From Sulfolobus acidocaldarius SUSAZ (GTDB lineage Archaea; Thermoproteota; Thermoprotei_A; Sulfolobales; Sulfolobaceae): a DNA stretch of 64,000 nucleotides. Below the pieces are notes generated by a model. The model had not been told where the DNA came from. It ran no database searches and saw only the letters and a program-made list of their open reading frames with translations. The stretch covers positions 186,001 to 250,000 of the forward strand of contig CP006977.1 in assembly GCA_000508305.1 (NCBI GenBank). Direction: 5' to 3'. Both the position numbers and the translations under genes were made by a program. Shown here piece by piece: positions 37,615 to 61,946 of the stretch. Position 1 is the stretch's first letter, and every line of letters begins with the position of its first letter.

Positions 37615-39691
37615 CTAGATTTTGTCCGAGTAAACTCTTTACTCTCTCAGGTTTCATAACTATGTCCTCAGGTTTCTTTATTCCCTGGTTGAATAATAAT
37701 CGAGCTCTAGCTCTACCTATACCTGGAACTCTGACCAACTCTAACAACTCCTCCTTAACCCCGTCGGCTATCCTCTTATGTAACTTCTCTAGAACTGAGG
37801 CATGTTGATTTAAATCAAGGATTGAAGATACGTGAAAAGCACCATATGTCAACCACTCCATTGTGTCAACTATTGCCCTTAAATCTCCTGATCCTATGCC
37901 ATATTTACCAAGTATTGTATCTTCATCTACCTCCTCAATCCAGTCCTTAAGAATAAATGCCACTTTGAGTGCTGAAATGTAATTTGAAAACTCAAGTTCA
38001 TCATCAGGTTCATCTATTATTAGCTCACAGTCTAAATTGTCAAGTAGGGCGTCTTCTTCATTTCTACCTACACTTACTAAGGGTCCATCAGGTGTGTAAG
38101 CTATCAAGTGAAAATAGGCTATATCACATGGACTCTCAGCTCTCTCCAGGTAATTCTTAATTGTAACTGCAGTAAAGGGATTTAGGTAAAGGTCTGACAC
38201 TCTCCTGCCGAATTTTGTTAACTGGAGTCTATCGTCATCACTCATTATGAACTCGTTTTTACTTAACCAGTCAATGGCGTTGTTGTAGTATTTCCTGACA
38301 AGTTGCTTAGACAACATTGTATCTTCCACATAATCCTTGAGTCTGTCTTCAGTAATTTCACCTTCTGATGCTATTAAACTTAACACGAAAGAGAAGAACG
38401 GTCCCTCAGCACCCAGTTTTGACTCTATGGGCTCTATGTCTGAATGGAGGTACTTATCTATTACCTTATCGACCTCTACTTTAGACCTTACCAGAATAAT
38501 AGCCTCTCCGTGATCATCATAACCAGGTCTGCCCGCTCTTCCGCTCATTTGTCTGTACTCCATAGTCGATATCATTTCCGTAAAACCAACTATCTTCCTG
38601 TTGAATCTGTAAATATCACCTATTACTACTGCTCTCGCAGGAAGATTTACTCCAGCGGCTAGTGTGGGAGTGGCTGTTATAACTTTAATAATTCTTTCCC
38701 TAAACGAGGCTTCTATTATATCCCTTAAGCCCTTTGACAGACCAGCGTGATGAAAAGCTACTCCTCTTACAATCAAATTATACAGTACTTCTTTCTCGTT
38801 GCTTCCAGCATCTTCTACTTCCTTTATCCTCTCGGCTGCTTCTAACAGTTTTTTATCATCTAATTTAACAAAATTCATATACTGTGAGATCTTCATTGCT
38901 GTGGTCTCAGCGTATTTTCTTGACGACCTAAAAATTATTACCTGACCTCCTTTGGACAATATGTCTAATGTGTAGGCCATTATAGGGTCGTCTCCCTTTA
39001 ACTTGTTCGTTGTCCCATCAGAGTAAAGAATTATGTGCCCTTTTTTCCCTTCTGAATACATAACCCCTTCCTTCAATGGTACAGGTCTCCAATTGGTTGC
39101 AACTATATCAGCGTTTAACCATTTTGCCACATCTTTCGCATTTCCAATGGTAGCACTTAAAGCTAGGATAGTTCCCTGTCTCTTAGCCCTCACGGCTACA
39201 CCTTCAACCACAGGACCACGATCTCCATCATTCATATAATGGAATTCGTCCAACACGAAGTAATCAATGTCCTTCAACCACTCAGCGCTGTGCCTCCACA
39301 ACGAATCTAGTTTCTCGTATGTTGTAACGATTATGTCAAAGTTACGTAACCAAGGATCATCAGTATCATAGTCTCCACTGGTTACACCTACCTTAAAGCC
39401 AAGTTTTTCCCAATCTTTAAAAGTGGAGTACTTCTCGCTGGTTAGAGCTCTCAGAGGAGTTACATAGATCGCTTTACCGCCCTTATTCAGTAAATGGGAT
39501 ATCATCCCCAATTCTGCCATAAGAGTCTTACCTGAGGCAGTAGGAGTAGTTATGAGAAGCCTCTTGTCCTCTATCAAACCTTTTTTCACAGCTTCGGTCT
39601 GGGGAGGGTTAAGCTTCTTAATACCCCTGCTCTTTATTATGTCCTTGACCTTATTATCGACAGGCAAATCTTCTACGGTTATTTCTTCCAT
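37574..39691 (-). CDS. hel308: Hel308 (Hjm) DNA repair helicase
   Basis: 705 residues. Motif I is [14 protein letters not shown], motif II LDEFHY (DExH), motif III LSATIGN, and motif [13 protein letters not shown]. Winged helix and ratchet domains follow, and a C-terminal helix-hairpin-helix [14 protein letters not shown] is present. It is a 3'-5' ski2-like helicase that removes lagging strands at stalled forks. An upstream T/A-rich region separates it from the RHH-Pit genes on the other strand. Confidence 0.94.
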
Positions 39692-39853
39692 ATCCTAAAC
39701 GTTACCCATTATTTTGTAGGATTTATAAGCATTTTCCCCCTTATATGAAGTTTTTACTTACGTTTTCTTAATACTACCATTAATAAACTTTTCCTTTACT
39801 TCTTTACTAGTTATACTTATCTCTTATGACATAATATGATATTGTGATCACTT

Positions 39854-40051
39854 ATGAATGGCGTCAAGAAACTCGACGATAATACCTTTGAACTTGAAAT
39901 GAGCGGTGTTAAAACCATTTCCTTTAAACTTGATGATGACTTTTTGCAGGAAGTCGATAAAATGGTAAGACTTCTTGGTTATACAAATAGAAGTGATCTT
40001 ATAAGAGATGCTATACTTGAATACATCAGTGAGTTAGAAGATAAAACATGA
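39854..40051 (+). CDS. Ribbon-helix-helix regulator
   Basis: 65 residues with KTISFKLDDDFLQEVDKMVRL then GYTNRSDLIRDAILEYI, a complete CopG/NikR-like RHH domain. The stop overlaps the start of the phosphate permease by four bases (ATGA), so it may be an autoregulator of that gene. Confidence 0.82.
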   Translation: MNGVKKLDDNTFELEMSGVKTISFKLDDDFLQEVDKMVRLLGYTNRSDLIRDAILEYISELEDKT

Positions 40052-41019
40052 TAGATTTAAACCTTATACTATCTATACTTATATTTATTTTTGGTATTAC
40101 ACTGTCTTTTATAGTAGGTGGTAATAACTCTGCAATATCTTTGGGGATTTTAGTTTCGACAAATGTAATGAAGCGAAAATATTCGTATCTGATTAGTGCA
40201 ATCTCTATATTTTCAGGGGCATCGATTGGAAGTCTAACCATGTTTAAGAGTGTACATGGAATAGTTAATACGTCGGATGAGCTATTAGCAAAAGTTATCA
40301 TAGTATGTATACTCTTTTCATCAATACTATCCTTCTTCTATCTAAATAGAATGGGGGTTCCTACTGCTCTAAGCCAAATGATATATCCTTCTTTAGCAGT
40401 CATCTCACTAGTCACTAGGATAGTTTTCCTTTGGAGCGCTTTCCTTGTGACTTTAGTGTCCTGGATGATTTCACCATTAATAGCAATAATTTTTGCTCTT
40501 TTATTATACAGATTAGTCCATACCTTTTTGAAGAGTACAAAAGGGATAATCGAACAGGTGAAGTATTATAGGGTAATCATATTGATAGCCTCTGCATTGA
40601 CGTCATTTGTGACAGGGGCTAATGCTGTAGGTATTATAATCTCAACTGGGCTCTTTGCATTACCAGAATACATAATAGTACCATGTTATGCACTAGCAGC
40701 TGCCATAGGGATTTACCTGAGTTCATGGAGGGCAGTGATCACAGTAGGTTTTAGGGTGACCAAGCTAGGTTATGCAAGTGCGTCCTCAGCACTTATAGGA
40801 AGCGCATTAGTATCTGAAGTTTTTACGGTGTTTAGTGTGCCCATATCTATTACGCAAACAGTTATGGGAGGAATAATAGGTTTAAGTTTTAGGAGTCTTA
40901 CCTCTGATATAGAGAAGCAGTTAAAACAAATAGGTCGCGGTTGGTTACTATCTCCAACATTTTCTATTATAGTATCTTTAGCCTTGTATGGTATAATCAG
41001 AAGTATTTTAGGATTTTAA
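40048..41019 (+). CDS. pit: PiT-family inorganic phosphate transporter
   Basis: 323 residues with about ten transmembrane segments. The PiT repeats are visible as VGGNNSAISLGILVSTNVM (about 22-40) and TGANAVGIIISTGLF (about 189-203). It carries phosphate with a proton or cation. It is coupled to the RHH gene and convergent with a PhoU-like gene, overlapping by 12 bases. Confidence 0.88.
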   Translation: MIDLNLILSILIFIFGITLSFIVGGNNSAISLGILVSTNVMKRKYSYLISAISIFSGASIGSLTMFKSVHGIVNTSDELLAKVIIVCILFSSILSFFYLNRMGVPTALSQMIYPSLAVISLVTRIVFLWSAFLVTLVSWMISPLIAIIFALLLYRLVHTFLKSTKGIIEQVKYYRVIILIASALTSFVTGANAVGIIISTGLFALPEYIIVPCYALAAAIGIYLSSWRAVITVGFRVTKLGYASASSALIGSALVSEVFTVFSVPISITQTVMGGIIGLSFRSLTSDIEKQLKQIGRGWLLSPTFSIIVSLALYGIIRSILGF

Positions 41020-41670
41020 TGTAGCGTATAATATTTCTATACTTAGTACTGCACTCTCCATGCTATCCAATATATCGTCAAGGAAAAATATGGCATCTCT
41101 TGTCTGTAAGAGACTTATTAGATGGAGTGAATCCTCCATATCGTATAGCCTCGTTATGATCATGTCTTTAATTTCATCTCCACTCCTCTCCAACATCTGC
41201 ACCTCTTTTCCAACTTTAAGGGCTGAGGCTATGTCCTTTGGTAATAGGGACAACATTAAAACTACTTTATCAGATGCCTCAAGAATTATAGAAATATATG
41301 AGAGAAGACTTTCCTTCAGAGTTGTCAGACACTTTTCATCAACTCTCCTGGCTGTCAACGCCCTACCTGCGTCCTTCGCTGAAGCACTTGCCCTGTATAG
41401 ATCTTGTGTAAGCATAACTATAGCCTCCTTAAAGTCCGGCAGAAACGCTTCACTGTATATCACTGAGAGTAACTCCTCCCTAGTCATGCTTATCTTTTCA
41501 TTCAAAGATTTGATTTTAATTAGACTACTGTTTTTCATGTCGTCGTCCTTGACCAATAGGGCGTTTATTAACTGTCTCAAAGCTTCAGCTGTAGTTTTCA
41601 AATCTTCTCCTATTTTAATTAGCTTGTCAAATACCTCTTGCTCTCTGTTGATTCTAATTTTTAGTACCAT
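41008..41670 (-). CDS. PhoU-like (DUF47/TIGR00153) protein
   Basis: 220 residues, nearly all helical, with paired helical-bundle repeats (REELLSVIYSEAFLPDFKEA; LYRASASAKDAGRAL; MLERSGDEIKDMI). DUF47 proteins are PhoU relatives usually found with Pit transporters and thought to control them. The convergent position next to pit supports this. Confidence 0.82.
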   Translation of the reverse strand: MVLKIRINREQEVFDKLIKIGEDLKTTAEALRQLINALLVKDDDMKNSSLIKIKSLNEKISMTREELLSVIYSEAFLPDFKEAIVMLTQDLYRASASAKDAGRALTARRVDEKCLTTLKESLLSYISIILEASDKVVLMLSLLPKDIASALKVGKEVQMLERSGDEIKDMIITRLYDMEDSLHLISLLQTRDAIFFLDDILDSMESAVLSIEILYATLKS

Positions 41671-41725
41671 AATATCAAGATAGAATCTCTTCTCTTCTGA
41701 ACTTAAAAGGATTTTCCTCTTAAGA

Positions 41726-42859
41726 CTACTCCTTTAACCCTTCCGCTAAACTTCTCAATTTCCTAAGTGCAAAATCCCTGTCTTTCTCTTCGGTCTTGAT
41801 CCTTTGTAGTATATCCTCTAGGGTGTAGATTACCTCATAGGCAACCTTCCTGTTAACTGGAAATGGAATACCGTCCTTTCCTCCAATTGCATAAGCATAT
41901 TTGAAGGGATCATAAGGCATGTTAACAGGGTCGTTATAGGAGGGTGGTTCATTGTATACTAAATCTGCCACAAGATATAATGCCTTAGTACTAGATGGAC
42001 CTAAACCATGTAAGAGTGCCTCCTCTAAATTAGACGGGTTTACTTCGTATACCTTATGTAGTATTTGCCTAATTTTGGATATCTCTATTGGCTTCATGTA
42101 AATTCTCCTCTTCTTTACATCAACCTTGAACGCAGAGGGATTATCTAGTGTGGTCTGTCCTTTTATCATATTTTCAGCCTTTATTACGTCATTAATTAAC
42201 TTCTCAGGAGGCTCTCTAAGGAGGTCAACAATCAACTTTCTCGTATTCTCCGCATTCTTATCTACGGCATTTATGGCAATTTCCTGTTTTACACCCATTA
42301 TGCCTTTGTGCGGTTCAAGCAGGAAGTTTTCAGTAGAAATCCAATGGTACCTCCTGGCAAATCTGGTCTCCAGATTCATTCCCTGTTGTATAATACCCCA
42401 TTTTCCGCTTTCACTAACTAAAACTGAGTGGTGATATAGGGTATGTCCATCCTGAATTAGTGTACTATCGACTTTAGCCACTAATCTACTGGCTCTTTCA
42501 ATCTTTTCAAGGTTTACAGAAAATTTTCCTCTAAGGCTGTTTAATTCATCAGGGACTTTTAAGGCATTTTTGCCTTTACCGCCTAATATCGCTATTCCTT
42601 CTTCCTCTGGTTTTATAACTTCTTTGAGTATTCCTAACGTAACTGTGGTTGAACCAGAGGAGTCCCAATCCATGCCTATGATGTTATTAAATCCTTGAAA
42701 CCATAGAGGGTTTGACAATCTCTCAACTACTTTATCTGGACCCCACTCAACTATCATCACGTCCACAATAGCCTTTGACAACCTCCTCATAATACTTGCT
42801 AACCAATAGGGAACTTTACCTGTGTGAAGCGGTAAATCTGCTATTCCTTCGAGACCCAC
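41726..42859 (-). CDS. DUF763 family protein
   Basis: 377 residues. The start GIADLPLHTGKVPYWLA and the mid-region RYHWISTENFLLEPHKGIMG are characteristic of DUF763, a family found mainly in thermophiles and archaea. A conserved LLHGLGPSSTKALYLVADL helix near 275 suggests a nucleic-acid role, but no function is established to my knowledge. Confidence 0.85.
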   Translation of the reverse strand: MGLEGIADLPLHTGKVPYWLASIMRRLSKAIVDVMIVEWGPDKVVERLSNPLWFQGFNNIIGMDWDSSGSTTVTLGILKEVIKPEEEGIAILGGKGKNALKVPDELNSLRGKFSVNLEKIERASRLVAKVDSTLIQDGHTLYHHSVLVSESGKWGIIQQGMNLETRFARRYHWISTENFLLEPHKGIMGVKQEIAINAVDKNAENTRKLIVDLLREPPEKLINDVIKAENMIKGQTTLDNPSAFKVDVKKRRIYMKPIEISKIRQILHKVYEVNPSNLEEALLHGLGPSSTKALYLVADLVYNEPPSYNDPVNMPYDPFKYAYAIGGKDGIPFPVNRKVAYEVIYTLEDILQRIKTEEKDRDFALRKLRSLAEGLKE

Positions 42860-42896
42860 AAATAGCTTTTCTAGTAGTAATACGATTTATATTTTG

Positions 42897-43559
42897 ATGC
42901 TAATAGCAGCAACATCAGACATCCATTCACCTAGATATCTAACACAGTTCTTTGCTTCATTTAATTTGATAAGGAATCTCTCCATTGACGTATTCCTTTT
43001 AGCAGGTGATTTAGCAAATGAAGGAGAGTACATACATTTTAAACCGGTATACGATGTTCTAAAGAGGTTTAGAACAATAGCAGTATTTGGAAATGAGGAC
43101 TTTAGGGAGAACAGGGATTCGTATAAGGAAACTTATCCTGATATAAAATGGTTAGAAGAGGATATTGTGGAGTTCAAGGTGGGAGATATCTTAGTCAGCG
43201 TAATTGGTAGTGACGGCGTTTTAGAAGAACCTACAAAGTGGCAAAAACTTAACGGTATTGATGAGAACTATTATAGGGAGAAGGCTAAAAAGATAGAGGA
43301 TTTACTGTGTAAGGCTAGAGGAGACGTGAAGTTACTCCTAACACATTACGCATGTACATTTAGGACTGTCCAGGGAGAGAAAAAGAGTATATTTCCCTAC
43401 CTGGGTTATAGAATACTTGAGAAAACCGGTTGTTTACCCCATTTGGCTGTACATGGTCATGCACATCACTCTAAAGTCACTCAAGGCTTGGTTAGAGGAG
43501 TGAGAGTTTATAATGTTGCGTTACCTGCTAATCATAAGATTGTCTTAATAAGGTTCTAG
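42897..43559 (+). CDS. Calcineurin-like metallophosphoesterase
   Basis: 220 residues from ATG 42897 (a TTG three bases earlier is possible). Metal motifs are ATSDIHSP (DxH), AGDLANEG (GD), FGNEDF (GNxD/E), LLTHYAC and HGHAHHSK (GHxH). It could cleave phosphodiesters in nucleotides or nucleic acids. It converges with the TnpB-like gene, three bases apart. Confidence 0.87.
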   Translation: MLIAATSDIHSPRYLTQFFASFNLIRNLSIDVFLLAGDLANEGEYIHFKPVYDVLKRFRTIAVFGNEDFRENRDSYKETYPDIKWLEEDIVEFKVGDILVSVIGSDGVLEEPTKWQKLNGIDENYYREKAKKIEDLLCKARGDVKLLLTHYACTFRTVQGEKKSIFPYLGYRILEKTGCLPHLAVHGHAHHSKVTQGLVRGVRVYNVALPANHKIVLIRF

Positions 43560-43562
43560 ATA

Positions 43563-44384
43563 CTAACAAGTATATTTACATTGTAGTGCCAGGTTATACG
43601 CAGCGTTAAAGTCTCTGTCAGCCTTGTAACCACATGATGGACAGACAAATAGCGGTCCCATCACTTCACCTCTCCTGAATCCACAGTTAGAGCAAATTTT
43701 GCTTGTGTAATATGGGGGAAGTTTTCTGAACTTAACTCCCTTCCTATATAGGTGACTCTCTAGTTCTTTCTCCACAGTTCTCAGTGCACTGCCTATTTTA
43801 CTTTCAAAATACTCTAAATCCTCTATTGCAACTACTTTAGGGTTAAGGTCTTGGATAAATGACACAACATCTCTTATGATATTACCAATCTTACCCTTTA
43901 TCGTCCTTATTTCAGAAACTCCTTGCGGATCACCGATTACCTTTATCATCTCTTCAGTTATGACATCGTTTCCCCAATATCTTACCTTCCAGAGGTTATC
44001 TTCTCTAATCGACACCACTGTGATTAAGTGCCTAACCCCGATATCAATACCAACTATTGATTTAGGCTTTTCATAAGCAAGAAAAACTCTCACGTCGTCT
44101 GAAAATTCAGCTATAGCATAGAGAGGAGGTGATCTTCTTGTTGAACTCACTAGAGCATCGACTTCAGGTATTCTATAGGGACTTGTATTTCCTATTATTC
44201 TCAATGGACCGTATCTTATTTTGTTACTTGAGGAGGTGGCTTGATAATACAATTCACGGGGTATATTTGAGGGAGGTGGACCTCCCTTCACTATCTTCGA
44301 GTACTCCCTGATAAACAAAATCTGTTTATGAATCTCTTTTAATTTTCCGTAATTCAAAATTTTAGCTTCTATCAGCTCTTCCAT
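43563..44384 (-). CDS. TnpB-like RuvC nuclease, shortened, no element ends
   Basis: 273 residues against about 370-420 for typical IS605 TnpB. The catalytic half is complete: RuvC-I IVGIDIGVRHLITVV with D114, RuvC-II VVAIEDLEYF with E188, zinc finger C231/C234 and C248/C251, and RuvC-III KADRDFNAAYN with D256/D258. The N-terminal 105 residues do not show the usual TnpB WED/REC pattern. Only three bases separate its stop from the convergent phosphoesterase, so there is no room for an IS605 right end or an omega-RNA 3' of the gene. It follows the amidotransferase gene by 26 bases and has its own AAATTTAAATG promoter element. It looks domesticated. Confidence 0.85.
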   Translation of the reverse strand: MEELIEAKILNYGKLKEIHKQILFIREYSKIVKGGPPPSNIPRELYYQATSSSNKIRYGPLRIIGNTSPYRIPEVDALVSSTRRSPPLYAIAEFSDDVRVFLAYEKPKSIVGIDIGVRHLITVVSIREDNLWKVRYWGNDVITEEMIKVIGDPQGVSEIRTIKGKIGNIIRDVVSFIQDLNPKVVAIEDLEYFESKIGSALRTVEKELESHLYRKGVKFRKLPPYYTSKICSNCGFRRGEVMGPLFVCPSCGYKADRDFNAAYNLALQCKYTC

Positions 44385-44410
44385 AAGATTAATTATGATT
44401 AGACATACAT

Positions 44411-45124
44411 TTAAATTTCGATTACACTACCCTGTCTTAATTCCTCACCTTTAACTCCATAGTAATACATAACAGTGGAAGAGAAAACAAAGTTTTCATA
44501 TCTATACATCTTGTAGTAATCTTCAACATCCCTCATCTTATTCTTATTGTAATAATGACCGACCAAGAGAGATACATCCTCATTACTTAAAGATAAGAGT
44601 ATTGAGTTCAAAGTGACTGAAAACTCAGACAGCTTGATTATTGTCTCCTCATAGGCTCTCTTCACATCAAGGTTGTTTCTATCGATGTTCTTTATTATTT
44701 CTTGCAGGAAAAGGTAACTATCTGTTGAAGGGTAGTTTGGGTCTTCAAATGCTTTTCTACTTATAGATCCATTATGGGCGAAGTAAATATCCAGATTCTT
44801 TGTCCTCACGTGATATGGGTGATTATGCCTTACTCCTAGAAGAAAACCCTTTCCAGCTCTCCTGACATGAATCATGCCTATTACTCTGTCTCCTTTTAAT
44901 AGGCTTGCAATGTCATAAAACGTGGGATCATCATATATAGGAATTGGAGACTTGAAGTAGAGTACTCTAGGTTTATTATCCCTATATATTATTGCTGAAA
45001 TTCCCCAACCATGAGGGTGATTCAGGTATCTGGAGAACAAATCATTTCTTGCAGCGTCAATTAAGGCTTTCAAAGCCTTATGGTCAACCTCACCTTTTAC
45101 TGAAAACCCTAATAATCTACACAT
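44411..45124 (-). CDS. Class II glutamine amidotransferase
   Basis: 237 residues with N-terminal nucleophile C2 (MCRLLGFS), then NHPHGWGISA, VRRAGKGF and YFAHNGSIS (the NG oxyanion pair), the YafJ/EgtC-type Ntn-hydrolase layout. It has no synthetase domain, so it would hydrolyse an amide or serve a separate partner. It overlaps the MBL gene by eight bases. Confidence 0.85.
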   Translation of the reverse strand: MCRLLGFSVKGEVDHKALKALIDAARNDLFSRYLNHPHGWGISAIIYRDNKPRVLYFKSPIPIYDDPTFYDIASLLKGDRVIGMIHVRRAGKGFLLGVRHNHPYHVRTKNLDIYFAHNGSISRKAFEDPNYPSTDSYLFLQEIIKNIDRNNLDVKRAYEETIIKLSEFSVTLNSILLSLSNEDVSLLVGHYYNKNKMRDVEDYYKMYRYENFVFSSTVMYYYGVKGEELRQGSVIEI

Positions 45125-45812
45125 TTAATACTAACCCATCATATGCTACTATATAATTCTTGGCTATTAATTTAACTTGATCTTCTATTTGCGAAGGTAT
45201 ATGTGTCATAACCAACTTGTTAGGACTTGAAAACATTGATAGTAGTTGCTTAACAGATGTATGCCCATACTTAGAGCACTCCTCTAGACAACTTGCTTCA
45301 TGAATGACCAAATCAGCATCCTTGATTTCCTCCATAACTGGCTCACAGGGTTGGGACGTGTCTCCTGTGTAAACAATTTTTCTTTTACTATCAGTTATCA
45401 CATACGAAACAGCGTATATTGCATGGCAAGCCTCTACAGAATATACGTTTAAGTCCCCTACCTTTCCATTAGGCTTACTTTCCTCAACCAGCCTTATGTT
45501 TATGCCATTCCACCTCTGATAAGAGCTCAATATTTCATATAGTCCAGGGGGAGATTTAATTTCCACATCAGGAAGACCGAAGATTCTTCTGTATATTAAA
45601 TGATCAGGGATCCCGTTTATATGATCAATATGTAAGTGTGTTACAAATATAGTTGAGAAATCTACTAGGTCCAGGTCATCTAATTTGAAACTAGCTCCAG
45701 AACCTAAATCCAGTAGTATTGACGCTTCGCTCCCTTTAACATATATGGAGGACTTCACTCTTTTACTCCCTTTTGTTGATCCTGCTCCAGTTCCCACAAA
45801 GGTTATTTTCAC
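45117..45812 (-). CDS. Metallo-beta-lactamase hydrolase, RNase Z-like
   Basis: 231 residues. GTGAGSTKGSKR, then the zinc motif THLHIDHINGIP (HxHxDH), ACHAIYAVSY, VYTGDTSQPCEP and LVMTHIPSQ. It resembles short RNase Z/ElaC-type proteins, but the exosite arm of a true tRNase Z is not apparent, so another phosphodiesterase role is possible. First in a unit with the amidotransferase and probably the TnpB-like gene. Confidence 0.83.
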   Translation of the reverse strand: MKITFVGTGAGSTKGSKRVKSSIYVKGSEASILLDLGSGASFKLDDLDLVDFSTIFVTHLHIDHINGIPDHLIYRRIFGLPDVEIKSPPGLYEILSSYQRWNGINIRLVEESKPNGKVGDLNVYSVEACHAIYAVSYVITDSKRKIVYTGDTSQPCEPVMEEIKDADLVIHEASCLEECSKYGHTSVKQLLSMFSSPNKLVMTHIPSQIEDQVKLIAKNYIVAYDGLVLNV

Positions 45813-45905
45813 TTCTCCTCACTCTCTAAATACATTATACAGTAAGGACATGGGCTTTTATGTTTGCTATTTAACCTTTTTATTCCGACCTTATTCCTGG
45901 GTTTT

Positions 45906-46772
45906 TCACTCTTTTTCAATTAATTCACTCACCTCGCTCAACCTGGGTCCTAAGGCACCTATCCTTGTAGTTGAATACGCTGAGATTATGTTAGAGATTC
46001 TCACCGCCCTCTCTAAACTATAGCCCTTCTCAAGGTAAACCGCCAGGGATGCATTAAAAACATCACCAGCTCCTGTAGTGTCAATAGCGTCTACTGTAAG
46101 TGTAGGGATTAAAATTCTCCTCTCCCTTGTGCCTATGTAAGCTCCCTTTTCACCTAACGTTACTATTACTGCCCTCTTAACTTTCTTTAAGAGTAAGTCT
46201 ATTCCGTAGTTGAAATCTTGAGTGCCTGTCAATTCCTTAAACTCAATTTCATTTGGCGTCAAAATATCAACGTATTCGAGCAGGGACTTGTCATTAAGAA
46301 CAGCAGGGGCTGGATTTAATATTTTAACACCGGGGAACTCCTTCAATGCTTTCTTAACAATGTTCTCGTTCACTTCCAATTGTGTAAGTAAAATATCTCC
46401 ATTTAAACATCCATCTAAGTCCTCTTCATTGAGGAGAGCATTTGCTCCTCTATTCACAACTATGAAGTTCCTCCCTTTCCTATCAAAGACTATGTAAGCA
46501 GAGCCTGTTAACGCGTTTTTAATTTTCACATACGCAATATCTAACCTTTCGTCCTCCCAAAATTTTATAGCCCTTTTTCCGAACTCGTCATTACCCACTG
46601 CAGAGATTAACCTAACGCTTCCACCTAATCTTGACGCAGATACAGCTTGATTTGAGCCCTTCCCTCCGTGATCTATGTAGACACCATCACTGAAAACTGT
46701 TTCTCCCTCTGATGGGAAATCTCTAACCTTAATTAGAAAATCCACATTATAACTTCCAACAACAACGATCAT
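45906..46772 (-). CDS. rbsK: Ribokinase-like PfkB sugar kinase
   Basis: 288 residues. VVGSYNVDFLIKV at the start, HGGKGSNQAVSASRLGG at about 37-53 (substrate glycine motif) and DTTGAGDVFNASLAVYLE with the catalytic Asp. The double glycine/NQA motif is that of ribokinase; a nucleoside kinase role is an alternative. The start overlaps the thiD-like stop by four bases. Confidence 0.82.
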   Translation of the reverse strand: MIVVVGSYNVDFLIKVRDFPSEGETVFSDGVYIDHGGKGSNQAVSASRLGGSVRLISAVGNDEFGKRAIKFWEDERLDIAYVKIKNALTGSAYIVFDRKGRNFIVVNRGANALLNEEDLDGCLNGDILLTQLEVNENIVKKALKEFPGVKILNPAPAVLNDKSLLEYVDILTPNEIEFKELTGTQDFNYGIDLLLKKVKRAVIVTLGEKGAYIGTRERRILIPTLTVDAIDTTGAGDVFNASLAVYLEKGYSLERAVRISNIISAYSTTRIGALGPRLSEVSELIEKE

Positions 46773-47977
46773 TTTGACACCCTTTTAAGTTTCTCTATCA
46801 TCTCTTCTACAGTGTTAGCCGTGAGATAAGCCCTACCTTCATGTAGTATTAGGTCTCCATCAAGACCGCTCTTTGTAATTTTTATTATACCCTCCTGAAC
46901 AGCGTTAAGAAGATTACTGTTTAAGGAAACTGATAGAACTATTCTCCTTTTATGCTCATTGGCAATTTGTGTAACCTTATTATTGAGGTTTATTAGTACA
47001 GGTCCATCAACCTTAATCTTATCTAGGTAAGGTATTATACCTCCGGCTAATGTCGCAACGTCTTGATAACTGGTTAGAACAGCAACATTACTCTTGTCTT
47101 CCTCCTCCAATACAGTCCTTATTAATTTAGGATTTCTTTCTAGTTGCCACAACAAATTCTCTGCATCCTCCCTTGCAGTTTCTCTTTCGATTATCCTTTC
47201 CACATTAGAAAAAGGATCAACTGGACCATTACCCTCCCCTAAATCTAATGAGTACTCTATTGATTTTGACACAAACTCCTTAGCCATCTTTATTGCTTCC
47301 TTAATTTTGTGACCCTTAGCTAAATACGCGGTGAGAGAGGCAGAGAACACATCCCCACTTCCATGAGTGTTCTTAGTTTCCATCTTTTTACTCTGTAATT
47401 CAATCTCTTCTCCCTGAACAATGGCATAATCCATTCCTCCTAAGCTTCCCCCTCCTTTTACAACAACATCAACGCCATACTTAGTATAGATCTCACGAGC
47501 AGTATCTTTAAGGTCTAGTAAGTTCTCAATTTTCCTTCCTACTATTTTCTCGGCTTCGAACTTATTCGGAGTGAGTATTACGGATTCCCTTATCAACTCT
47601 TTTAAAGCTGACACAGTATCCTCTGTTACCAGTAGGTCGCCTGATTTAGCTACCATTACCGGGTCAAGTACTAGCCTTATGTTGTATTCCCTTACCTTTT
47701 TTCTCACTACCTCAACTATACGGGAGTTAGCTAGCATTCCTGTTTTTGCGTACTCAGGCTTTAGGTCAGTCATAATCACATCTATTTGAGACTCCACAAA
47801 ATCTGGAGGAACTTCAAGGACTTTGAATACACCTTTAGTGTTTTGTGCCGTTAAGCCTGTGACTACTACTGTCCCGAATACGCCTAATGCTGTGAAAGTT
47901 TTTAGATCAGCTTGTAATCCTGCACCTCCACCTGAATCACTGCCTGCTATTGTCATAACTACAGGTCTTTTCCTCAC
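46769..47977 (-). CDS. thiD: ThiD hydroxymethylpyrimidine (phosphate) kinase with C-terminal extension
   Basis: 402 residues. Residues 1-265 are a complete Thi[42 protein letters not shown] and [19 protein letters not shown] with the catalytic Asp/Cys-site region. Residues about 275-402 resemble a shortened ThiN domain ([39 protein letters not shown]), lacking the usual ThiN basic/aromatic catalytic segment. Full ThiD-ThiN fusions make thiamine phosphate; this tail may only bind or sense it. Confidence 0.85.
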
Positions 47978-48017
47978 AAATAATTAGAGTGAAGGGCATG
48001 AATAAAAATAATTCTAG

Positions 48018-48629
48018 TCACTTTATTTTCTTGTAGGGACACAACGTCTTAAAGACACAATATTCACATTCCCAGGAATAACGTGGAGCTATCTTAGCCT
48101 TCAACGTCTCTTCTGCTAATCTTATTATAGTGACCTCCTCAGCGGGTTCGTTTATCGAGTATTCGGTGACCCTATCTGGTGTTACATATACCAAAAGTCC
48201 TCTTTTTAACCCAAAAAGCCAAAGGTAAATTTGCAGTTGATATTTGTGATGTTCATGTGGTAGACTTCTGTCTGCCCTAGCGCTCTTTATTTCCACTATG
48301 ACTTTTTCATCGTTTATCTGTATTATGGCGTCTGCTCTACCCTTAATCTTTATCTCCTTTCCGTCTACTGGAATAGTCTTCTCTCCTTCAACTTCGATTT
48401 GAGAGTTGGGGTATACACTCTTTATGAATTCCTGTAGTCCTAAATGAACAAGGTCTCCGAGCATAGTAGCTGGAGTGAATGCTTCAGATAGTGCAATCTC
48501 TTTATACATGGTCTCAAATCTAAGTTTCATGGGGCATCTCAGTATGTCTGTAACGTATAATACTCCTTCTTCTCTTTGGTGGGACATATAGTCCTTTATC
48601 CTGGAATTTATAAGAGCCTCAACTAGCAT
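48018..48629 (-). CDS. Cas4-like RecB-family exonuclease, solitary
   Basis: 203 residues. Iron-sulfur ligands C32 and C188, C191, C197 (WECEYCVFKTLCPY) flank a RecB nuclease core: H62 in GDLVHLG, D100 in GRADA, E113/K115 in IVEIKSAR and Q131/Y135 in YQLQIYLW. This is the Cas4/DUF83 layout, like the stand-alone S. solfataricus SSO0001 type. No CRISPR array or other cas gene is in the window, so a repair role is more likely. Confidence 0.88.
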   Translation of the reverse strand: MLVEALINSRIKDYMSHQREEGVLYVTDILRCPMKLRFETMYKEIALSEAFTPATMLGDLVHLGLQEFIKSVYPNSQIEVEGEKTIPVDGKEIKIKGRADAIIQINDEKVIVEIKSARADRSLPHEHHKYQLQIYLWLFGLKRGLLVYVTPDRVTEYSINEPAEEVTIIRLAEETLKAKIAPRYSWECEYCVFKTLCPYKKIK

Positions 48630-48632
48630 AAG

Positions 48633-49808
48633 CTACACCTCAGGTACTGATATCTTCCCACTTCTCTCCGTCTTTATCCAAACTCTTGGAACTCTCACTA
48701 TTTCCAAGAATACTGCTGTGACATTTAATAACATTACGAAATTCATGTAAATGAGGGATAGTATAGAGTATTGATATTCAATTAAGTGTTTTCTCGATAT
48801 TCCAAGTGCTGTTATGAAAGACAAAAGAGTTGCTGTAGAAACAATTACCATGGTCACGACGAAAAGCGGTGTTTGATATATTAGGACTAGGGAGTAATTT
48901 ACGAGGTTCATCAACATAAATATAGGAGTTCCTATAAGGAGTATTCCGTCAAATATCCTGGGATCAATCTTCTTGGGCATGGATAATGAAATTTCAAAGT
49001 GTCCCCTGTACCACCTCAACCTCTGCCTTATTAACCATCTCAAACTACTGGCGACTTCTCTCCATGCAACCACATTAGGGTTATACATTATTTTGTAACC
49101 AGCACTAGTCAGTTTTACACTCAAATCCAAATCTTCGGTTAAGCTATATTCATTCCATCCCCCCATCTCCTCTATAATGGATTTTTTAACGAATGTGCAA
49201 GTACCCTCTAAGGGAACAAACAATCCAAATCTGGCTCTTCCACCGATAGAGTACTCATTAAAAAGCTCTTCAAGGCTGGCAAATCTCGTTATTATACTTT
49301 CCCTAACATTTATTGGAATTAACTTTCCTTGAACAGCCACAACGTTATCTGAATTAAAGGATCCTGACACATAGCTTAAAACATCTAACCTAGGAAATGT
49401 GTCTGCGTCAAATACTCCTATTATATCAAATTTTGCAAGTTTCATGGCATAGTTCAACGCCCTGCTCTTTCCATTAGTAACATTAGATTTATCCAGCTTG
49501 ACACATCTCACATTATCGTAATTCTCTTCGTAGTTTTTACAAATTTGAAAAGTCCTATCTGTTGATCCGTCCTCAACAACTATAATCTCATATTTAGATT
49601 TATCATATTCTTGGTTTATTAACCGATCAAGGAGTCTGCCTAAAACCTTCTCCTCATTTTTTGCTGGCACTAGAATAGAGAAAGTTTTATCGCTGTATTC
49701 TATTTTTTGGTTCATCCTCCAAGTAAGCCCATAGAATGATAGAGCACTGTTATAAATGTTCCATGATGAAACTAGTATGCTAAAGAATACTACGATTTCA
49801 TTAAGCAT
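48633..49808 (-). CDS. Membrane-bound family 2 glycosyltransferase
   Basis: 391 residues. A membrane anchor at about 1-20, GT-A domain with SILVPAKNEEKVLGRLL, VVEDGSTDRTF, GVFDADTFPRLD (DxD), SLTEDLDLSVKL and RQRLRWYRGHFE (QxxRW), then three or four C-terminal membrane segments. It resembles cellulose synthase/hyaluronan-like processive enzymes; product unknown, possibly a surface glycan. Upstream of the Cas4-like gene by three bases. Confidence 0.88.
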   Translation of the reverse strand: MLNEIVVFFSILVSSWNIYNSALSFYGLTWRMNQKIEYSDKTFSILVPAKNEEKVLGRLLDRLINQEYDKSKYEIIVVEDGSTDRTFQICKNYEENYDNVRCVKLDKSNVTNGKSRALNYAMKLAKFDIIGVFDADTFPRLDVLSYVSGSFNSDNVVAVQGKLIPINVRESIITRFASLEELFNEYSIGGRARFGLFVPLEGTCTFVKKSIIEEMGGWNEYSLTEDLDLSVKLTSAGYKIMYNPNVVAWREVASSLRWLIRQRLRWYRGHFEISLSMPKKIDPRIFDGILLIGTPIFMLMNLVNYSLVLIYQTPLFVVTMVIVSTATLLSFITALGISRKHLIEYQYSILSLIYMNFVMLLNVTAVFLEIVRVPRVWIKTERSGKISVPEV

Positions 49809-49846
49809 TGATAATCCTTTTCCAATCTATATATTAAAACTCTTTC

Positions 49847-50179
49847 GTGGTATTAGACTATAATACTGGGATTAGGAGTTACCTTAATACACTGCCCTTT
49901 AGCGTAAAAGAGAAAATGCCCAATATATGTATTGTGAGAGAGCTACTGGGTGACTACGAGAAGAGGGGGGAGAGCCTGAAAAGACTAGGCAAGTTCGTGG
50001 CACTAGTACTAGACGATCCATTTCATGCCACAACAGTAACCGGACTAGCACTTTACGGCATGGGTAAAATAGCAGAGAGAAGAACAAACTACGGTCTAAG
50101 ACTGGCATATATAAGTGTCAAAGAAGGAGAGAAAGCCCTTAAGGAAGGGCTATTAGACATAATATCTTTAAGGTTCTAA
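49847..50179 (+). CDS. Conserved hypothetical protein, 110 residues
   Basis: Helical, soluble, starting at GTG 49847 behind an AT-rich block (ATATTAAAACTC). Contains LVLDDPFHATTVTGLALYGMG, repeated small residues suggesting helix packing. Seventeen bases before the UPF0282 gene, so co-transcribed. Family not recognised. Confidence 0.65.
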   Translation: MVLDYNTGIRSYLNTLPFSVKEKMPNICIVRELLGDYEKRGESLKRLGKFVALVLDDPFHATTVTGLALYGMGKIAERRTNYGLRLAYISVKEGEKALKEGLLDIISLRF

Positions 50180-58875: not shown

Positions 58876-58997
58876 TAACCTCAGTACATAAATTGGCTTT
58901 AAATATTTTTTGAGAAATAGAATTATTATAGATGTTAATTATATTATGAAAGAGTCTTTGCAGTGAAACTCTATATATCGGTAGTTACAAGAGAATG

Positions 58998-59031
58998 AAA
59001 GCCTCGCCATTTAGGGCGGAGAGGAAGTCAG
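58998..59031 (+). repeat. IS605-type end hairpin, copy 3
   Basis: GAAAGCCTCGCCATTTAGGG followed by CGGAGAGGAAGTCAG. Stem CTCGCC/GGGCGG-AG with an ATTTAG-like loop; the GGAAGTCAG tail is identical to copies 4 and 5. No tnpB next to it. Confidence 0.6.
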
Positions 59032-60124: not shown

Positions 60125-60356
60125 AATATATGGTTTTCACTCTTATGAATTAGTTATTACCCATTCCTAAACTACTGATCCCACCTAAAACTAAGTCCTC
60201 TAAATTATCCATAGTATTTGTAATAATCTAATTAAAGATTAGAGAAATTTAGTTAAGGGCTGTTTCTATTAAGTGTTCATAAACTCACGTTTTTACTTTG
60301 TTTACATTTTCCTAGAGGATTAAAGCTCTAGGTCAGTGATTATTTTACTAAATGAG
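60125..60356. other. Spacer with a perfect seven-base hairpin
   Basis: No ORF over 20 codons. It holds the hairpin at 60311-60332 and a smaller AATCT/AGATT inverted repeat near 60225-60240. It continues into IS605-type hairpin copy 4. Confidence 0.4.
60311..60332. repeat. Perfect inverted repeat CCTAGAG/CTCTAGG
   Basis: Seven paired bases around an eight-base loop (GATTAAAG), followed by TCAG, so its tail reads AGGTCAG like the tails of the IS605-type hairpins 30-60 bases further on. It may be an imperfect relative or a separate structure. Confidence 0.45.
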
Positions 60357-60390
60357 GAAAGTCTCCCCTTCAGGGCGGGGAGGAAGTCAG
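60357..60390 (+). repeat. IS605-type end hairpin, copy 4
   Basis: CTCCCC and GGGGAG form a six-base stem around TTCAGGGC, followed by GAAGTCAG. Same tail as copies 3 and 5. It is 77 bases beyond the stop of the AAA ATPase gene. Confidence 0.6.
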
Positions 60391-61683: not shown

Positions 61684-61719
61684 CTGACTTCCTCCCCACC
61701 ATAAATGGCAAGGCTTTCA
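61684..61719 (-). repeat. IS605-type end hairpin, copy 5 (inverted)
   Basis: On the minus strand: GAAAGCCTTGCCATTTATGG then TGGGGAGGAAGTCAG. The stem GCCA/TGGT with flanking pairs and the GGAAGTCAG tail match copies 3 and 4. Orientation is opposite to copy 4, on the other side of the AAA ATPase gene. Confidence 0.6.
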
Positions 61720-61946
61720 TCATTTTGTAATTTTCCTGCTTTTATGTATTAAATAAAGATTTATTTTTAACTCTTATCTCTAGGTGAAAGTGACTTTTTT
61801 TAAATATATATGCATGAGTTTTCATTAGAAATATAGATAAGACTTCTTTTAGTTAAAATTTTTTTATATTTATAATTTAGAGCATTATTGATGGTATTAG
61901 ATATATCTGTAACAATATTACTTAACTAATTTCTTATCGTATCAAC

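Follow-up and report, generated by a model that had tools for sequence, protein, structure and literature searches.

A TnpB-derived single-copy host gene of Sulfolobaceae with an invariant RuvC nuclease site and a predicted reduction of the REC domain

In TnpB the omega-RNA scaffold is held by the WED and RuvC domains, and in the ISDra2 protein a REC domain of four helices (residues 13-116) reads the TAM together with WED (PMC10097598). The TldRs are nuclease-dead TnpB-like repressors, in which the nuclease site has been lost and guide RNA and DNA binding have been kept (PMC13418256). All of the TnpB descendants in the literature that we covered kept the RNA guide, Cas12 together with the nuclease and TldR with the nuclease lost. 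The protein described here is encoded in a stretch of 64,000 nucleotides from Sulfolobus acidocaldarius SUSAZ (contig CP006977.1, positions 186,001 to 250,000), which is called the window below. Our search found no paper on this protein in the literature that it covered; the main text of the S. islandicus essential-gene paper names no TnpB, and the only TnpB treated in the S. acidocaldarius RNA atlas is another one, Saci_1941.

Descent from TnpB is clear by sequence, and we describe the product as a TnpB-derived host protein. With the TnpBs of IS200/IS605 and IS607 elements (ISDra2 TnpB, 8h1j/8exa) it shares the RuvC D-E-D site, the CCCC TNB, the WED fold and the order WED/REC-RuvC-TNB. In contrast to them, it lies outside any element, its predicted REC is much smaller, the C-terminal domain is gone, the basic RuvC segments are reduced, no right end or omega-RNA was found, and the gene is single copy and vertically inherited. 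We did not file it as a strict TnpB, because it lacks a full REC in the predicted model and element ends of the resident type and because its score against the curated NCBIfam guided_TnpB model (69.7 bits) is below the cut-off of 100. Like the TldRs, which are tied to host or phage genes, it is a TnpB homologue detached from its transposon; unlike them, it has an invariant RuvC site, and the guide and TAM machinery is reduced instead. Cas12f and the miniature type V effectors give the best sequence and fold matches over the C-terminal half, but they differ in that the present protein is far smaller, has lost most of REC and has no CRISPR array beside its gene (no array-like repeat was seen in window 38000-50000). 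The RuvC Holliday-junction resolvase has in common with it, by fold comparison only, an RNase H-like nuclease core, whereas the WED N-lobe and the zinc ribbon are absent from RuvC.

The locus and its conservation in Sulfolobaceae

The open reading frame proposed by the sequence-only reading proved to be real, on the minus strand (Table 1), and the tight spacing that it had described holds at the locus, with 26 bases between the amidotransferase gene and the TnpB-like gene and 3 bases between the latter and the convergent phosphoesterase gene. The TTTAAA box of the TnpB-like gene overlaps the amidotransferase stop codon, and most of the 30 genomes that carry the gene have a TATA-like box some 25-30 bases upstream of its start codon, which suggests that it would have its own leaderless promoter. 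The SUSAZ genome is one contig of 2,061,920 bases and contains the gene once. Window 41008-41670 is a PhoU_div match, in agreement with the PhoU-like gene Saci_0266 (PMC5554439), and by counting three genes on from Saci_0266 the TnpB-like gene would be the orthologue of Saci_0269.

Table 1. Positions of the features in the window and the basis of each assignment.
Feature	Position	Strand	Basis or remark
TnpB-derived host gene, 273 aa	43563..44384	-	single full-length copy; Cas12f1-like TNB zinc domain, TnpB/Cas12f relatives
N-lobe, residues 1-106: WED beta-barrel split by short REC remnant	44067..44384	-	predicted model, pLDDT 87.5
Reduced REC insert, residues 12-55, helices 15-31 and 43-50, between WED strands 1 and 2	44220..44351	-	predicted models compared with PMC10097598
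RuvC-I catalytic Asp114 (GIDIGVRH)	44043..44045	-	D in 30/30
RuvC-II catalytic Glu188	43821..43823	-	E in 30/30
RuvC-III catalytic Asp258 (DRDFNAAYN)	43611..43613	-	D in 30/30
TNB CCCC zinc ribbon, Cys231/234/248/251	43632..43694	-	four Cys in 30/30
TATA-like box TTTAAA	44410..44415	-	25 bases before TnpB-like start codon
Class-II glutamine amidotransferase, conserved 5' neighbour	44411..45124	-	PF13230
Metallo-beta-lactamase-fold (MBL) protein (RNase Z-like), conserved neighbour	45117..45812	-	family match and synteny
Convergent calcineurin-like phosphoesterase	42894..43559	+	PF00149
43-nt element, copy 1	58989-59031	+	
43-nt element, copy 2	about 60347-60390	+	
43-nt element, copy 3	about 61687-61729	-	

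Exactly one copy per genome was found in 30 of the 31 Sulfolobaceae genomes, including all 28 of good quality, and the sole genome without it is a MAG of 79% completeness; such a pattern of single-copy orthologues is far beyond chance. All family copies are full length and stop-free, with 41-100% identity to the query. A search of 197 genomes of the order gave no match outside Sulfolobaceae at 1e-25, and in a phylum-wide search with a 25-row profile (300 genomes) ordinary TnpBs matched at the RuvC and zinc part only, never at the N-lobe. No relative was found in the viral contigs searched, and the plasmids and phages searched held distant TnpBs only.

The sequence-only reading had proposed that the order MBL-amidotransferase-TnpB-like be sought in other Sulfolobales, and that absence from the syntenic position together with flanking element ends would speak against domestication. 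The opposite was observed: in 26 of the 30 genomes the gene follows this amidotransferase gene and is oriented alike, and none of the 30 copies has a sense-oriented right end of the resident type within 600 nt. The ancestral-looking order is ThiD - PfkB - MBL - amidotransferase - TnpB-like, and the gene is located elsewhere in a few genomes (G159; G119 and G171; G167). A position so close to the amidotransferase gene leaves no room for transposon ends. On the 3' side, many genera have a convergent HDAC-like deacetylase gene that touches or overlaps the TnpB-like stop codon, and in another arrangement a Xaa-Pro-peptidase-like gene follows closely (both names come from reading the sequences rather than from a family search), the phosphoesterase being found in this place in S. 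acidocaldarius; in most genera, neighbouring genes leave no room on this side.

Within genera, the dN/dS of the gene is mostly 0.01-0.1. Its tree recovers the same genera as that of the Hel308 helicase, with nearly the same within-genus order and a similar deep split. The single copy, the agreement with the Hel308 tree and the invariant active site show vertical inheritance under strong active-site constraint. A mobile or recently inserted element is ruled out by the one copy per genome, the synteny, the lack of resident-type ends and the lack of relatives on the viral contigs searched, and a pseudogene by the zero stops in 30 genomes and the low dN/dS. Domestication, which had been suggested on the basis of one sequence, is thereby well backed, and from these comparisons it seems very nearly certain that the TnpB-like gene is a domesticated host gene.

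Several features of the neighbourhood were seen in passing. A DUF763 protein (PF05559, 400 bits) is encoded at window 41726-42859, adjoining the phosphoesterase. Five genes upstream of the TnpB-like gene, at window 48018-48629, there is a solo Cas4-family/PD-(D/E)XK nuclease gene, which in many Sulfolobaceae genomes lies beside ThiD inside the same conserved cluster; from gene context, it is a possible functional partner of the TnpB-like protein. In three genera, a conserved ORF of 87-89 aa is present between the amidotransferase and the TnpB-like gene (loci L046, L047, L048, L049, L050 and L066).

Architecture of the protein

The three RuvC motifs and the zinc finger, previously described as intact from a single sequence, are so throughout the family: D114, E188, D258 and the four zinc cysteines are invariant over the 30 genomes despite pairwise identities down to 36%, and Arg118-His119 after motif I, identical in 30/30, are signature residues specific to the family. 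The active site is almost certainly needed by the protein, and we consider it likely, with good confidence, that the protein would be an active nuclease. Pfam recognises the zinc-ribbon part only (PF07282, 65 bits against a cut-off of 26.3). In a 455-aa TnpB of the same genome (L069, G000:C1:1772572-1773726), noticed in passing, motifs I and III retain Asp and the RuvC-II Glu is apparently replaced (VYLGYPYF); this TnpB is possibly nuclease-dead or has a rearranged site.

The AlphaFold model of the full protein has a pLDDT of 77 and a pTM of 0.55, and the models rest on an alignment of three sequences. The predicted order is a WED-type strand, a two-helix insert of some 44 residues and then the remaining WED strands; the insert thus compares, in the model, with the 104 residues of REC in ISDra2 TnpB, and the full four-helix REC with its TAM-reading residues is not found. 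When the isolated N-lobe was compared with solved structures by VIA, TnpBs came first (8exa, 8h1j, 8iaz), followed by Cas12f, at low Z scores of 4.8-4.0 and an rmsd of about 5, with all 106 residues aligned to TnpB 3-175 (Z 4.8, rmsd 5.3 and 106 aligned for residues 3-175 of ISDra2 TnpB; Z 4.0 for ISFba1 TnpB). Foldseek gave no significant match for the isolated N-lobe against the PDB (best E 0.48). Since the N-lobe aligns best to TnpB 3-175, and REC of ISDra2 TnpB occupies the place of the insert, the missing part is most of REC. The protein had been read as about 100 residues short at the N terminus; this needs correction, as motif I comes 77 residues early (D114 here, D191 in ISDra2 TnpB, PMC10097598) and the missing stretch is, according to the model, internal. 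N-terminal truncation is ruled out, the N-terminal WED strand being present in the model and REC being shrunken.

The RuvC lobe is also reduced. The span from motif I to motif III is 153-154 residues, as compared with 174-183 in TnpBs, a shortfall of about 25 residues inside RuvC; by hhalign, two parts are shortened, the basic helix segment that separates motifs I and II and the NRR/H loop that follows motif II. Net charge between motifs I and III is +2.0 to +4.6 per 100 aa, compared with +6.0 to +14.7 in ten TnpBs, a mean drop of more than half. The C-terminal domain or tail is absent. The protein is still mildly basic, with a pI of about 9. When the NUC lobe was aligned by VIA, RuvC resolvases stood on a level with the Cas12 entries (Z 13.8, rmsd 3.0 and 126 aligned for the resolvases), a likeness of shared fold that shows no function.

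Element ends, guide RNA and possible function

Immediately behind the genes of the resident TnpBs in the SUSAZ genome there is a common right-end core, GCCCTTTAGGGCGGGGAGGAAGTCA. In a search that covered ends of this resident type, the 600 nt that follow each of the 30 TnpB-like copies were free of a sense-oriented core, and the copies are flanked by host genes. There was no Rfam match around the gene. Extra synonymous conservation, as a sign of a hidden omega-RNA, was not seen at its 3' end; four resident TnpB paralogues taken as the control were too similar for a clear contrast, with no sharp 3' rise either. Orphan right-end elements were rejected as an RNA source: a genome has between 0 and 47 cores, whereas the TnpB-like gene is present once, so that the counts do not track it, and five genomes that carry the gene (G022, G078, G175, G155 and G125) have none. 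In one genome (L046, on contig C33 of G183), the stop codon is followed within some tens of bases, near the contig end, by a GC-rich hairpin that resembles a right end in antisense orientation, GAAGCCCCGTGAGGGCGGGG; it probably marks where a separate IS element, directed at the TnpB-like gene, ends.

The protein probably serves a new job for the cell, and what we regard as the best explanation overall, at about even confidence, is a TnpB-derived host nuclease of RuvC fold that is RNA-independent or structure-directed. A TnpB would have lost its transposon before or early in the Sulfolobaceae radiation and would thereafter have passed down the lineage as a host gene, in one copy and under a promoter of its own. 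Strong selection would have kept the RuvC-fold nuclease site and the zinc ribbon, and most of the TAM-reading REC, much of the basic surface that holds omega-RNA and the C-terminal tail would have been lost. The present protein would hydrolyse nucleic acid by the two-metal RuvC mechanism, needing neither a TAM nor a guide RNA of the transposon type. Its substrate would be selected through its shape or with the help of a partner; candidates are DNA that is branched or single-stranded and structures of RNA and DNA, which could be contacted via the remaining WED barrel. Here nuclease activity, guide-RNA independence and the nature of the substrate are what we infer. An RNA-independent nuclease is favoured because the TAM-reading and omega-RNA-holding parts are the ones that are reduced, and that the protein works without a TnpB-type guide RNA has about even odds or slightly better. 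The wider proposal, that a TnpB shed its guide-RNA and TAM machinery and kept the nuclease, taking the path opposite to that of TldR and ending as a core RuvC nuclease of Sulfolobaceae that needs no RNA, is put forward tentatively, at a confidence just short of even. If true, it would add a third route of domestication, with the nuclease kept and most of the target-reading lobe shed in a family-wide single-copy gene, and it would offer for study a minimal RuvC-TNB nuclease of natural origin, in hosts that are open to genetics (S. acidocaldarius and S. islandicus).

The main rival is that the protein is an RNA-guided nuclease still, in which a compact guide RNA made elsewhere replaces the lost REC and directs the cutting of specific DNA. 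The nuclease site and the WED barrel are indeed retained, the REC-less IscB and IsrB use bulky omega-RNAs instead of REC (PMC10097598), and the SUSAZ genome harbours orphan right-end or omega-RNA-like elements of 43 nt. The protein may also bind RNA, since it is mildly basic and has kept WED, one of the two omega-RNA-binding domains of TnpB. However, the RuvC charge is more than halved on average with the basic segments shortened, the orphan elements match the right end of the resident TnpBs themselves and are missing from the five core-free genomes, and there is neither an Rfam RNA nor, in most genera, room 3' of the gene; we therefore consider this rival rather unlikely, if far from negligible. 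An RNA made elsewhere, as the sequence-only reading had suggested, could still exist, but nothing observed speaks positively for the idea: reduction has affected the parts that bind RNA and read the TAM, and core-free genomes keep the gene.

The precedent of the TldRs, TnpB descendants that act without cutting (PMC13418256), could speak for a regulatory or structural nucleic-acid-binding protein in which the RuvC residues are there for the fold or to bind metal and not to cut. But TldRs lost their catalytic residues, and here all three are invariant over 30 genomes whose proteins diverge to 36% identity, which makes such a role improbable. An antagonist of the resident TnpBs, which would restrain IS200/IS605 elements by competing with them for target sites, right ends or omega-RNAs, might be expected, since Sulfolobaceae genomes carry many TnpBs and the gene is TnpB-derived; yet the invariant D-E-D site would not be needed, the RNA-binding surface is precisely the reduced part, and conservation is equal in genomes with few TnpB candidates (4 in G022 and 5 in G108), so that this role appears more improbable still. 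Finally, a TnpB-like sequence and a short protein are what a TnpB pseudogene, in decay or of recent insertion, or a TnpB that is part of a mobile element would present, but the single intact and syntenic copy per genome, the low dN/dS, the lack of resident-type ends and the searches of viral contigs, plasmids and phages refute this.

The 43-nt insertion in the window

A separate observation concerns an element of 43 nt that contains no gene but has the hairpin found at the right end of the resident TnpB elements, with the consensus AAAATGATGAAAGCCTCGCCCTTTAGGGCGGGGAGGAAGTCAG behind TTAC. The right-end core occurs 45 times in the SUSAZ genome (control 0), 8 times in G032 and 0-47 times in other Sulfolobaceae. 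The 20 orphan-site stretches that were read are parts of an insertion of about 43 nt that starts behind TTAC (in a few cases TTAT or similar) and ends in AAGTCAG. It looks like an extremely small MITE derived from a TnpB element, or a solo omega-RNA end. Of the three copies in the window (Table 1), two have precise empty sites behind TTAC in G032, and the third is common to both genomes.
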